A DNA stretch of 64,000 nucleotides from Methylorubrum populi (GTDB lineage Bacteria > Pseudomonadota > Alphaproteobacteria > Rhizobiales > Beijerinckiaceae): positions 2,566,501 through 2,630,500 of the forward strand of contig NZ_AP014809.1 of assembly GCF_002355515.1 (NCBI RefSeq). The letters are read 5' to 3'. A program made the position numbers and the translations under genes. The notes below the pieces were generated by a model that worked only from the letters and a program-made list of their open reading frames with translations, did no database searches and had not been told where the DNA came from. Positions 21,900 to 25,908 of the stretch are shown here, one piece after another (the stretch's first letter is position 1; each line of letters begins with the position of its first letter).

Positions 21900-22502
21900 A
21901 TGATCGCGCGAACCGTTTCAACCCGACGCGAAGCAAGGCCCGAGCCGCCGGTCACCGCCGCGTGGCTGGAACGGGTGACGACCCATTACCTCGACCGCTA
22001 CGGCGCCTCCTCCGAGATGCTGCGCCGCGTGCTCGTTCGCCGCATCGAGCGCCGCTGCCGCTCCCGCGACGAGGATCCGGGCGCGCATGCCGGGCTGATC
22101 GAGGAAACCGTGACTCGCGCGCAGCGGGCCGGACTGGTCGACGACGCACGCTTCGCCGCCGCTCGGCTGCGGGGCCTGAGACGGCGCGGCACCTCGACCC
22201 GTCAGGCGCAAGCGCGGCTCGCCGCCAAGGGGATCGACGCGGAGACGATCGCAGCGACCCTCGCCGGCGAGCGGGAGGAGGCGGAAGGGGCCGAGGCGGG
22301 CGAGCCCGACACCGAGGAGCGGGCGGCCCGGGCCTATGCCCGCCGCCGCCGCCTCGGCCCCTATCGCCGGCCGGGCACCCGCGAGGCCAACCGCGAGCGC
22401 GACCTTGCCGCCATGGCGCGCGCAGGCTTTTCCTACGCGCTGGCCAAGAACGTGATCGGCGGCGAGGCGGAGGAGGACGGAGTAACCTTCGGGGAAGAGT
22501 GA
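21900..22502 (+). CDS. recX: Regulatory protein RecX
   Basis: A 200-residue, highly charged helical protein of the RecX family, which limits RecA filament activity. It shows the three-repeat organisation typical of RecX: WLERVTTHYLDRYGASSEMLRRVL, a central LVDDARFAAARLRGLRRRGTSTRQAQARLAAKGI, and a third repeat ending in GFSYALAKNVIGG. The gene is divergent from the TAXI gene with 44 bases between starts. It is not next to recA but precedes a group of DNA-repair genes (radical SAM, UdgX). Confidence 0.85.
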   Translation: MIARTVSTRREARPEPPVTAAWLERVTTHYLDRYGASSEMLRRVLVRRIERRCRSRDEDPGAHAGLIEETVTRAQRAGLVDDARFAAARLRGLRRRGTSTRQAQARLAAKGIDAETIAATLAGEREEAEGAEAGEPDTEERAARAYARRRRLGPYRRPGTREANRERDLAAMARAGFSYALAKNVIGGEAEEDGVTFGEE

Positions 22503-23062: not shown

Positions 23063-23122
23063 CCGGTGCGCGGGCCAACGCGCCGCATTGATCCGCCGAC
23101 CGGTCTGTTCATCTTCCGTTCG

Positions 23123-24334
23123 ATGGACGACAAGCTCGCGCGCAAGCTGCGCATCCTCGCGGATGCCGCCAAATACGACGCCTCCTGCGCCTCCTCCGGT
23201 GCGCCCAAGCGCAAGGCGGGGGCGGACGGGCTCGGCTCGACGACGGGCGCCGGCATCTGCCACGCCTACACGCCGGACGGGCGCTGCGTCTCCCTGCTCA
23301 AGATCCTGCTGACCAATTACTGCCTGTTCGACTGCGCCTATTGCGTGAACCGCCGTTCCTCGAACGTCGCCCGCGCGCGCTTCTCGGTCGAGGAGGTCGT
23401 GACGCTCACGGTCGAGTTCTACAAGCGCAACTATATCGAGGGGCTGTTTCTCTCGTCCGGCATCATCCGCTCGCCCGACTACACGATGGAGATGCTGACC
23501 CGCGTCGCCAAGAAGCTCCGGCGCGATCACGGCTTTCGCGGCTACATCCACCTCAAGTCGATCCCCGAGGCGAGCCCCTGGCTGATCGAGGAGGCGGGGC
23601 TCTACGCCGACCGGCTCTCGATCAACCTCGAACTGCCCACCGAGGCGAGCCTCAACCGTCTCGCGCCGGAGAAGGACGGCGCGGCGATCGAAGGGGCGAT
23701 GGGCCAGATCGGCGAGCGCATCGTCCAGGCCAAGGAGGAGCGCCGCCGCTTCTCGCCCGCCGGGCAATCGACACAGGTCATCGTCGGGGCGGACGCCACC
23801 ACCGACGAGGCGATGATCCGGAAATCCGCGCTGCTCTACGGCACCTACGGGCTCAAGCGCGTCTACTACTCGGCCTTCAGCCCGATCCCCGACGCCTCCT
23901 CGGCCCTGCCGCCGCAGGCGCCGCCGCTCCGGCGCGAGCACCGTCTGTATCAGGCGGACTGGCTGATCCGGTACTACGAGTTCTCCCCCGACGACGTGGC
24001 CGGGGCGGCCGATGACGGAATGCTCGCCCTCGACATCGACCCGAAGCTCGCCTGGGCGCTGAAGAACCGCCACCGCTTCCCCGTGGACGTGAACCGCGCC
24101 GACCGGGAGATGCTGCTGCGGGTGCCGGGGCTCGGGGCGCGGGCGGTCGATGCCATCATCAAGGCCCGCCGCCACGGGCGCCTGCGCCTCGACGACGTGG
24201 CCCGGCTGACCTCGGGGCTGAAGCGCGCCCGGCCGTTCCTGATCGCCGAGGATTTCAGGCCGACGACGCTCACCGACCGGCTGGATCTGCGGGTGAAACT
24301 CGCCGAGCCGGCCGAGCAGTTGAGCCTGTTCTGA
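23123..24334 (+). CDS. Putative DNA modification/repair radical SAM protein
   Basis: A 403-residue radical SAM enzyme of the family annotated as putative DNA modification/repair (spore-photoproduct-lyase relatives). The 4Fe-4S-binding CxxxCxxC is C67-C71-C74 (NYCLFDCAYC). Other signature stretches are GLFLSSGIIRSPDYTMEM and IHLKSIPEAS. The C-terminus carries a helix-hairpin-helix DNA-binding module (about 321-361, VNRADREMLLRVPGLGARAVDAII). The ATG at 23123 is chosen because the family starts MDDKLARKL. Its stop overlaps the next ATG by one base (TGATG), so the two are co-translated; this pairing with a DUF4130-UDG gene recurs in other bacteria. The DNA lesion acted on is unknown. Confidence 0.9.
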   Translation: MDDKLARKLRILADAAKYDASCASSGAPKRKAGADGLGSTTGAGICHAYTPDGRCVSLLKILLTNYCLFDCAYCVNRRSSNVARARFSVEEVVTLTVEFYKRNYIEGLFLSSGIIRSPDYTMEMLTRVAKKLRRDHGFRGYIHLKSIPEASPWLIEEAGLYADRLSINLELPTEASLNRLAPEKDGAAIEGAMGQIGERIVQAKEERRRFSPAGQSTQVIVGADATTDEAMIRKSALLYGTYGLKRVYYSAFSPIPDASSALPPQAPPLRREHRLYQADWLIRYYEFSPDDVAGAADDGMLALDIDPKLAWALKNRHRFPVDVNRADREMLLRVPGLGARAVDAIIKARRHGRLRLDDVARLTSGLKRARPFLIAEDFRPTTLTDRLDLRVKLAEPAEQLSLF

Positions 24335-25908
24335 TGGATGAGGCGCCGCACTCGCTTCTCCCTCCCCCCTCTGCGAGGGAGGGTGGGCCTCGCGTCAGCG
24401 AGGGTCGGGAGAGGCGCGCGCCGGTTCCGGAGAGTTCGGAGCCGGCCCCTCTTCCGCCTGCTCCGCAGGCACCCTCCCCCGCAAAGGGGGGAGGGCATGT
24501 CGGCGGCGGCATCCACGTCGTTCCCCTCGCGCCCGGTGCGGACCTCGCCGGTTTCCGCGCGGCGGCCCGCCGCCTGATCGCGGCGGACGTCGCTCCGGAA
24601 AACATCGTCTGGCAGACCGAGGCCCCGAGCCTGTTCGGCGCCGACAGTGCCACCGCGGACGGTCCGCCGCTCCCGCTCCCCCGCGCGGTGGCCGAACTGA
24701 TCCCGATGGTGGTGCCGCATCGCGATCCCGAGCGCTACGGCCTGCTCTACGCGCTGCTCTGGCGGGTCGCCCACGGCGAGCGGGCCCTGATGGAGATCGC
24801 GAGCGATCCGCTCGTCCATCGTCTCCATCGGATGCGGAAAGCCATCGGCCGCGACCTGCACAAGATGCACGCCTTCCTGCGCTTCCGCCGGTTGCCGGGA
24901 GAGGGACGGGAGCGCTTCGCGGCGTGGTTCGAGCCCGACCATCACATCCTGGAGGCGGCGGCTCCGTTCTTCGTCGATCGCTTCCGCGCGCTGACGTGGT
25001 CGATCCTGACGCCGGAGGGCTCGGCGCACTGGGACGGCGCGCTCACCTTCGGCCCGCCCGGCCGCCGCGAGGACGTGCCGGACGGCGACGGCTTCGAGGC
25101 CGGCTGGCGCGACTATTACGAGAGCACCTTCAACCCGGCCCGGCTCAACCTCGACGCCATGCGCGCCGAGATGCCCCGCAAGTACTGGCGGAACATGCCC
25201 GAGACGGCGGCGATTCCCGCCCTGGTGCGGGCCGCGAGCGCCCGCGCGCAGGCGATGATCGAGAGGGAGCCGACCATGCCGGTGAAGCGCGACCCCGTCC
25301 GCGCCGTCGCGAAGATGCGCCAAGACGAGCCGGATTCGCTCGAGGCCCTGAACGCGATCATCGCCCGCTCCGAGCCGCTGGTGCCCGGCGCGACGCAGGC
25401 CGTGCTCGGCGAGGGGCCGGTCGGTGCGCGGATCGCCTTCGTCGGCGAGCAGCCGGGCGACCAGGAGGACCGCCAGGGCCGGCCCTTCGTCGGGCCGGCG
25501 GGCCAGCTTCTCTCCCGCGCGCTGGAGGAGGCGGGGATCGACCGGCGCGAGGCCTACCTGACCAATGCGGTCAAGCACTTCAAGTTCACGCAACGCGGCA
25601 AGCGCCGCATCCACGAGAAGCCGACGGCGGGTGAGGTCAGCCATTACCGTTGGTGGCTCGACAAGGAACTCGACTTCGTCGCGCCGAAGCTCGTCGTCGC
25701 GCTCGGCGCCACCGCGGTGCTGGCGCTGACGGGCAAGCAGATCCCGATCACCCGCGCCCGCGGCCCCGCCGAGTTCGACCGGCCGTTCGAGGGCTTCATC
25801 ACGGTCCACCCCTCCTACCTGCTGCGCCTGCCCGACGAGGCGGCAAAGGCGGCGGCCTATCAGGCCTTCGTCGAGGATCTGCGGCGGGCGCAGGCCATGG
25901 CGGCGTGA
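24334..25908 (+). CDS. DUF4130-UdgX fusion, uracil-DNA-binding repair protein without cysteines
   Basis: A 524-residue two-domain protein. Residues about 60-300 form the DUF4130 putative DNA-metabolism domain (HKMHAFLRFRRL, WFEPDHHIL, YYESTFNPARLN). Residues about 335-520 form a family-4-like uracil-DNA glycosylase of the UdgX type, with motif A GEQPGDQED (371-379), the R-loop KRRIH (423-427) whose His covalently captures the abasic site in characterised UdgX, and VHPSYLL (491-497). The whole protein has no cysteine, so the four ligands of the usual 4Fe-4S cluster are absent (RSEP and SHYRWW occupy the expected places). Residues about 7-56 are low-complexity and come from a palindromic DNA repeat. 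No alternative in-frame ATG/GTG start precedes the DUF4130 domain. It is co-translated with the radical SAM gene. Confidence 0.9.
   Translation: MDEAPHSLLPPPSAREGGPRVSEGRERRAPVPESSEPAPLPPAPQAPSPAKGGGHVGGGIHVVPLAPGADLAGFRAAARRLIAADVAPENIVWQTEAPSLFGADSATADGPPLPLPRAVAELIPMVVPHRDPERYGLLYALLWRVAHGERALMEIASDPLVHRLHRMRKAIGRDLHKMHAFLRFRRLPGEGRERFAAWFEPDHHILEAAAPFFVDRFRALTWSILTPEGSAHWDGALTFGPPGRREDVPDGDGFEAGWRDYYESTFNPARLNLDAMRAEMPRKYWRNMPETAAIPALVRAASARAQAMIEREPTMPVKRDPVRAVAKMRQDEPDSLEALNAIIARSEPLVPGATQAVLGEGPVGARIAFVGEQPGDQEDRQGRPFVGPAGQLLSRALEEAGIDRREAYLTNAVKHFKFTQRGKRRIHEKPTAGEVSHYRWWLDKELDFVAPKLVVALGATAVLALTGKQIPITRARGPAEFDRPFEGFITVHPSYLLRLPDEAAKAAAYQAFVEDLRRAQAMAA
24353..24498. repeat. Palindromic repeat element lying inside a coding sequence
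   Basis: The stretch begins CTTCTCCCTCCCCCCTCTGC and ends CCCTCCCCCGCAAAGGGGGG, with inverted purine/pyrimidine arms: CCCTCCC.../GAGGGAGGG at the left, GCCTGCTCCGCAGGC and CCTCCCCC.../GGGGGGAGG at the right. This layout matches dispersed intergenic palindromic elements common in Rhizobiales. Here it is in frame and encodes residues about 7-56 of the UdgX fusion. Confidence 0.7.

Follow-up and report, generated by a model that had tools for sequence, protein, structure and literature searches.

A predicted SOS-controlled radical SAM and DUF4130-UdgX repair operon of Methylorubrum populi whose UdgX domain has probably lost its 4Fe-4S cluster

The 64,000-nucleotide stretch of Methylorubrum populi DNA analyzed here (contig NZ_AP014809.1, positions 2,566,501 to 2,630,500; referred to as the window) contains a two-gene operon encoding a radical S-adenosylmethionine (SAM) protein and a fusion of a DUF4130 domain with a UdgX-type uracil-DNA glycosylase (UDG) domain. 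This operon probably represents an SOS-regulated DNA repair system whose UdgX domain has lost its 4Fe-4S cluster, the cluster being dispensable and not handed over to the partner protein. Features seen in the sequence, namely the operon, the fusion, the loss of ligands, the intact catalytic residues and a conserved LexA box, form the basis of this interpretation.

Loss of cluster ligands in the UdgX domain

The two genes overlap by one base, since the radical SAM stop codon TGA (24332-24334) and the ATG of the fusion (24334-24336) have an A in common. The fusion protein exceeded the cut-offs of TIGR03915 (189.8 bits; cut-off 112.25), TIGR03914 (306; 189.95), Pfam DUF4130 (128; 27) and Pfam UDG (110.7; 24.3) and stayed under that of the family-4 UDG model TIGR00758 (107.8 bits; 125.3). 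It contains no cysteine in 524 residues, and GEQPGDQED, KRRIH and VHPSYLL are all present, starting at aa 371, 423 and 491, respectively, with NAVKH starting at aa 411. An earlier note on this DNA had reported the overlap, the missing cysteines and these three motifs, all of which were found again.

The set was built from 80 named relatives in GTDB genomes, all read as DUF4130-UdgX fusions, and from loci of a phylum-wide survey of 299 genomes, with duplicates removed; the survey UdgX matches G194 and G155 (L134), although over the cut-off, were left out. The resulting 149 UDG-domain frames, complemented by three references and reduced by L001 (the copy of the window itself), gave 151 aligned sequences, and 137 rows remained after removal of 14 with identical ends. 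The set comprises 119 fusions, of which 39 (including the Methylorubrum copy) are termed cluster-less and 80 cluster-keeping according to their predicted ligands. From the 80 named loci, 49 entered alignments A1 and A3 and 47 entered the radical SAM alignment A2, in each case together with the Methylorubrum copy.

In these alignments, the four ligand positions read C, C, C, C in the Thermus family-4 UDG and C24, C27, H95, C120 in UdgX of Mycobacterium smegmatis (MsmUdgX). This confirms the four cysteines of the earlier note for family 4; for UdgX, to which the note had ascribed them as well, the alignment gives C, C, H, C. In the Methylorubrum fusion, the C24 place is deleted, C27 corresponds to E347, H95 to H415 and C120 to Y438; hence, by alignment, three cysteines are lost and the histidine at the presumed ligand position is retained. 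The elements concerned are located in the window as follows:

23107..23121, + strand: LexA (SOS) box with the alphaproteobacterial consensus GTTC-N7-GTTC (GTTCATCTTCCGTTC), one base ahead of the radical SAM ATG
23123..24334, + strand: radical SAM DNA-repair protein, TIGR03916 rSAM_link_UDG, 403 aa (545.8 bits, cut-off 343.5)
24334..25908, + strand: DUF4130-UdgX fusion, 524 aa, zero Cys (reading of the open reading frame (ORF) and profile matches)
25213..25887, + strand: UdgX domain, aa 294-518
25372..25374, + strand: E347, at the MsmUdgX Cys27 position by alignment, the Cys24 position being deleted
25444..25458, + strand: motif A GEQPG, aa 371-375 (E52/Q53 equivalents in 39/39 cluster-less rows)
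25576..25578, + strand: H415, at the MsmUdgX H95 position (fourth presumed cluster ligand), kept in 36/39 cluster-less rows
25600..25614, + strand: capture loop KRRIH, aa 423-427, with the putative nucleophile H427 at MsmUdgX H109 (His in 39/39 cluster-less rows)
25642..25647, + strand: H437-Y438, at MsmUdgX A119-C120, the sole two columns passing the test for clade-specific residues
25804..25824, + strand: motif B VHPSYLL, aa 491-497 (H178/R184 equivalents in 39/39 cluster-less rows)

Cysteines at all three of C24, C27 and C120 were found in 80/80 cluster-keeping fusions and 12/12 stand-alone UdgX proteins versus 0/39 cluster-less fusions. The pattern C, C, H, C is complete in 48 of the 80 named relatives and incomplete in the other 32. 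Within the cluster-less rows, the C24 position is deleted in 34/39 and the Cys27 position is occupied by E, G, P, D, L, A or T; Arg stands at the H415 position in two Parasphingorhabdus rows and in L127. Moreover, column 119 is His in 35/39 cluster-less versus 4/80 cluster-keeping fusions, and column 120 is Tyr in 38/39 versus 0/80. The equivalents of the catalytic residues E52, Q53, R107, H109, H178 and R184 are intact in 39/39 cluster-less rows.

Substitute ligands elsewhere in the fusion, which the earlier note had considered as a possible objection, were not recognized: the 50-row alignment contains no cysteine column special to the cluster-less rows. Other cysteines of the fusion were excluded as replacement ligands, since none is conserved and the other frequent cysteine column, at fusion aa 128, is common to both groups (15/26 cluster-less and 15/24 cluster-keeping rows). 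Because the ligands are lost, no replacement cysteine is conserved and the catalytic residues are kept, the UdgX domain very likely works without an iron-sulfur cluster, as the earlier note had proposed for the glycosylase half.

Predicted SOS control and age of the ligand loss

LexA boxes occur in different consensus types, among them the alpha and the gamma/beta type. One alpha-type match in the window equals chance expectation; position and conservation of the box carry the weight. An exact alpha box was detected within the 350 nt preceding the anchor in 82/93 loci rows, a count which includes a few duplicate genomes and from which two loci with short upstream DNA were excluded. The fetched loci, 911 kb in total, contain 111 alpha boxes (these included), and 153 were counted genome-wide in 5.9 Mb versus 59 for a control pattern. 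As a positive control, the alpha box was found at lexA of the same genome.

On distinct 150-nt upstream stretches, a box was present in 36/36 cluster-less and 50/56 cluster-keeping cases, five of the latter with the gamma/beta-type CTGT-N8-ACAG instead. These gamma/beta-type boxes are located at the corresponding position (67-81 nt from the anchor). Beyond these 36 and 56 stretches, six additional unlabelled rows showed the alpha box in five cases and none in L215 (= locus L220). Loci with DUF4130 only, described below, feature the alpha box in 2/8, the gamma box in 5/8 and neither in 1/8 cases. SOS control is well supported because the box switches type between lineages yet holds its position; a box changing in type but not in place is strong evidence for such control. 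The operon is accordingly assigned to the predicted SOS (LexA) regulon and would be induced by DNA damage.

In the tree of 137 rows, calculated with the ligand columns included, 38 cluster-less rows form one clade (support 97/90), which includes Methylobacteriaceae, Azospirillaceae, Acetobacteraceae, Hyphomicrobiaceae, Xanthobacteraceae and Parasphingorhabdus. The loss of ligands is an old and stable trait. The remaining cluster-less row, L127, is placed apart, among cluster-keeping rows; its fusion (L127:3652-5148, - strand) reads E-T-R-T at the ligand positions and possibly represents an independent loss.

The radical SAM partner and the weighing of explanations

The radical SAM protein matches TIGR03916, designated 'putative DNA modification/repair radical SAM protein', and scored below the cut-off of the general Pfam Radical_SAM model (26.1 versus 29.5). 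Its gene presumably corresponds to COG4277. Its cysteines number six, namely C22, C46, C55, C67, C71 and C74. The earlier note's CxxxCxxC motif is kept in the partner, whereas its helix-hairpin-helix is no more than probable, scoring below the Pfam cut-off. A profile of 48 radical SAM relatives, compared at the sequence level, retrieved four PDB rows with E values of up to 0.1; a spore photoproduct lyase is not among them. Further features of the two proteins are:

23186..23287, + strand: stretch of the radical SAM protein with three additional conserved Cys (C22, C46, C55), from alignment columns
23321..23344, + strand: CxxxCxxC radical SAM motif (C67, C71, C74), read from the sequence and kept in the radical SAM alignment
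24080..24178, + strand: probable helix-hairpin-helix (HHH_3 24.4 bits, below the Pfam cut-off of 27; weak profile match to ComEA 2duy, E 0.022)
24360..24495, no strand: 136-bp palindromic genomic repeat, translated as N-terminal extension of the fusion (26-nt arms, 92% complementary; 31 distinct places in the genome)
24541..25206, + strand: DUF4130 / TIGR03915 domain, aa 70-291 (189.8 bits; predicted model of the domain alone with a predicted local distance difference test score (pLDDT) of 87.4)

The earlier note suggested a two-component repair system with the iron-sulfur function transferred to the radical SAM partner, which would thereby serve the glycosylase. The partner, encoded next door, indeed possesses six cysteines, three of them beyond the radical SAM motif, and its gene adjoins 32/32 cluster-less named loci versus 38/48 cluster-keeping ones. 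However, the same cysteines occur irrespective of the state of UdgX: alongside a cluster-less UdgX, C22 is present in 26/26 rows and C46 and C55 in 25/26 each (of the six positions, three are each missing in a single row); alongside a cluster-keeping UdgX, all three are present in 22/22 rows; and all six occur in 8/8 loci in which the adjoining DUF4130 has no UDG domain. Since the six positions are near invariant with cluster-less, cluster-keeping and absent UdgX, a transfer of the cluster is unsupported and thus disfavoured; we regard it as very improbable. C22, C46 and C55, being near-invariant and outside the radical SAM motif, might coordinate an auxiliary cluster within this partner protein itself.

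Family-4 UDGs of the same class also speak against a transfer. Of 58 genomes searched, 56 had matches, and 29 of the best-scoring 30 loci were read (L186-L214 without L203). All 29 lack the full ligand set, 23 reading F-C-W-C, with two Cys left in most rows; the family-4 UDG of the M. populi genome itself (L002:1435-2430, - strand) is one of them. Neither a radical SAM nor a DUF4130 gene was matched within approximately 1.5 kb on either side of the 29 genes. Loss of ligands in this superfamily has thus arisen on more than one occasion within the class and needs no radical SAM partner. These family-4 UDGs, with Phe/Tyr and Trp at two ligand positions, may likewise be without a cluster. The radical SAM gene is also unsupported as cause of the loss: 48/80 fusions keep their ligands and 38 of these 48 adjoin the gene, yet all 32 cluster-less loci adjoin it too.

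Eight operons (L220-L227) consist of radical SAM and DUF4130 genes without a UDG domain; they are the eight with short frames among 31 genomes with DUF4130 over the cut-off. Conversely, 12/12 stand-alone UdgX rows have neither a radical SAM nor a DUF4130 gene in the stretch examined. The occurrence of the pair without any UdgX in eight loci suggests that radical SAM and DUF4130 represent the operon core and UdgX an added module. At G071:C1:5487547-5487696, a DUF4130 fragment interrupted by a stop codon was noticed directly ahead of a UdgX domain, suggesting that some UdgX genes are decayed fusions.

Taken together, the following mechanism is proposed. DNA damage would induce the operon through LexA, and the radical SAM enzyme would use radical chemistry to act on a DNA lesion kept in place by DUF4130. 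The UdgX domain may excise uracil or a similar base and subsequently lock onto the abasic site via H427. In the cluster-less clade, the CxxC loop is shortened and C120 and A119 are replaced by Tyr and His, which probably fill the emptied cluster space. In UdgX enzymes, the cluster would accordingly have a structural or auxiliary role and be expendable.

Several points weigh against this interpretation. Neither box type was found in six cluster-keeping loci (L030, L039, L052, L076, L082, L118), L076 having a box with one mismatch, and the recA stretch of the same genome contains no exact box, which counts against every SOS gene carrying one. When the ligand columns were removed and the 137 rows thinned at 80% identity to 96, the free tree needed four changes; since the approximately unbiased test rejects neither of the one-clade arrangements (p-AU 0.558 without L127 and 0.58 with it), one ancient loss and several losses are both compatible with the trees. 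H95 of MsmUdgX is presumably a cluster ligand, an assignment that follows from the alignment and not from a structure. Moreover, loss and operon may be linked: in addition to the adjacency of the radical SAM gene given above (the remaining 10 cluster-keeping named loci have it farther away in eight cases and outside the flank examined in two), ligand loss was seen in 0/12 stand-alone UdgX proteins, a comparison in which 12 stand-alone proteins are few and the 32 cluster-less loci belong mostly to one clade. Finally, activity, absence of the cluster and induction are inferred from sequence, as are base excision, covalent capture, packing of H437/Y438 and the division of labour.

Among the alternatives, UdgX could be a passenger, controlled by LexA and fused for co-expression, with its uracil chemistry separate from radical SAM-DUF4130 repair. 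The eight core pairs without UdgX and the 12/12 stand-alone UdgX rows without either gene fit this possibility, but 23/32 genomes having DUF4130 encode it in a long frame (at least 466 aa), as expected of fusions, and we consider the passenger role unlikely. The cluster-less UdgX could also be unreactive, acting as a uracil- or apurinic/apyrimidinic-site-binding module that recruits the radical SAM-DUF4130 pair. Such a role is plausible given the fusion, and in family-4 UDGs the part with the cluster may contribute to holding DNA; the invariance of every named catalytic residue in 39/39 cluster-less rows, however, makes a purely binding function rather doubtful. Furthermore, the emptied site may have become another metal or functional site, in which H415, H437 and Y438 bind a mononuclear metal or contact DNA. 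H415 is indeed kept in most rows (36/39) despite the loss of the other ligands, and H437 (35/39) and Y438 (38/39) are the only clade-specific columns by test, but a fourth conserved ligand is missing, given the variable Cys27 position, and the three Arg-bearing rows named above (two Parasphingorhabdus and L127) lack the histidine, rendering this explanation distinctly improbable.

In another scenario, DUF4130 is a shortened RecJ/Cdc45-like (DHH/DHHA1-fold) DNA clamp which together with the radical SAM enzyme performs an SOS-induced radical reversal of a base lesion, while the cluster-free UdgX stays covalently bound to the damaged strand or protects abasic sites; a new His-Tyr pair would stand in place of the cluster. 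If true, the cluster-free clade would show that the UDG cluster is required neither to recognize the base nor to capture DNA covalently. A local profile comparison of DUF4130 with RecJ, using a profile built from 20/25 RecJ loci, gave a probability of 0.2, within the range of the controls (0.1-0.5), and lent no support to DUF4130 as a RecJ relative; we consider this scenario rather unlikely. A sequencing error, frameshift or decayed gene, the second objection named in the earlier note, is a negligible explanation. The insertion of the palindromic repeat near the start of the fusion ORF might point to it, but the 524-aa frame is open, the same loss occurs in 32/80 independent named records, and full-length relatives reach up to 95% identity (nearest named relatives, from Methylorubrum, 93%).

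The N-terminal 55 residues or so of the fusion stem from in-frame read-through of this palindromic repeat. Five close relatives were inspected, and N-ends were shorter in three and longer and repeat-like in two; because of these differences, the conserved part of the fusion comprises approximately 465 aa, beginning near residue 60. Two genes upstream of the pair, at 21900-22502, a RecX-type recombination regulator (RecX_HTH2 above cut-off) is encoded, followed by an OsmC-like gene. An anti-phage defence system received no support, as neither protein had a PADLOC match (0 families at E 0.001). A constant third gene between the pair in Sphingomonas-type loci did not become apparent: intervening frames of eight loci, inspected by eye, are in several cases alike and in others unrelated. 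In three Sphingomonas-type loci (L045, L056, L059), the frame separating the two genes appeared hemerythrin-like by eye.

The role of iron-sulfur clusters in DNA glycosylases, be it structure, DNA contact or redox sensing, is a long-standing question. The fusions described here provide a natural set within one operon type, with and without ligands but with the same catalytic residues, complemented by family-4 UDGs with partial loss. Purified pairs of cluster-keeping and cluster-less proteins would make the role of the cluster directly testable. Moreover, a cluster-free UdgX could serve as a reagent in uracil mapping and base editing, applications in which UdgX is already used. The conserved LexA box provides a handle on the timing of operon action.

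Relation to known repair systems

Neither the gene pair nor its SOS control is new, whereas the cluster-less UdgX clade looks new; searches of open-licence literature gave no report of a cluster-less UdgX. The relevant passage of PMC3765255 (2013) describes DUF4130 as a predicted mutagenesis-related enzyme linked to SplB-like radical SAM proteins and UDGs. COG1573-COG4277 is presented in the respective part of PMC8565304 as a putative base excision repair system of two genes under SOS regulation in Bacteroidetes, with Erill 2016 and da Rocha 2008 being credited for Verrucomicrobia and Alphaproteobacteria. In view of this link, this discussion and the existing NCBI family models, the 'undescribed pathway' of the earlier note was too strong a term. 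SOS control was also predicted for splB in alpha- and beta-Proteobacteria, as stated in an excerpt of PMC3323433; this splB is probably a different radical SAM gene from TIGR03916, because PMC8565304 lists SplB separately, as COG1533.

The operon resembles COG1573-COG4277 in combining a UDG with what is presumably COG4277 in two genes under predicted LexA control, and differs in the loss of iron-sulfur ligands, which the consulted part of PMC8565304 does not mention. Likewise, TIGR03914, TIGR03915 and TIGR03916 (UDG_fam_dom, SAM_7_link_chp and rSAM_link_UDG) were all matched over their cut-offs and already state the link in their names, but names and descriptions are silent on a cluster-less subgroup. 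Family-4 UDGs of the same class belong to the same superfamily and are also without a full ligand set (29/29 best-scoring matches), but they differ in the two Cys of most rows, the Phe/Tyr and Trp replacements, and the absence of a capture loop and of DUF4130 or radical SAM genes nearby. Apart from these, a phage family-A DNA polymerase chain with a UDG-like domain near its N-terminus was noticed in PDB 9qhs.

The closest characterized counterpart in motifs and fold is MsmUdgX (PDB 6ajo, 6io9 and others), described as a 4Fe-4S protein in the section of PMC10359453 that also defines the UdgX motifs. Both proteins have GEQPG, KRRIH with the reactive His, and HPSxLLR. Cluster ligands are a property of characterized UdgX proteins, but the motif definition does not include them. 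Unlike MsmUdgX, a 4Fe-4S protein with PDB chains of approximately 210 residues and no DUF4130, the Methylorubrum fusion has lost three of the four ligand positions, with C120 changed to Tyr. The fusion is classed here as a predicted cluster-less UdgX-type variant and not as a 4Fe-4S UdgX.

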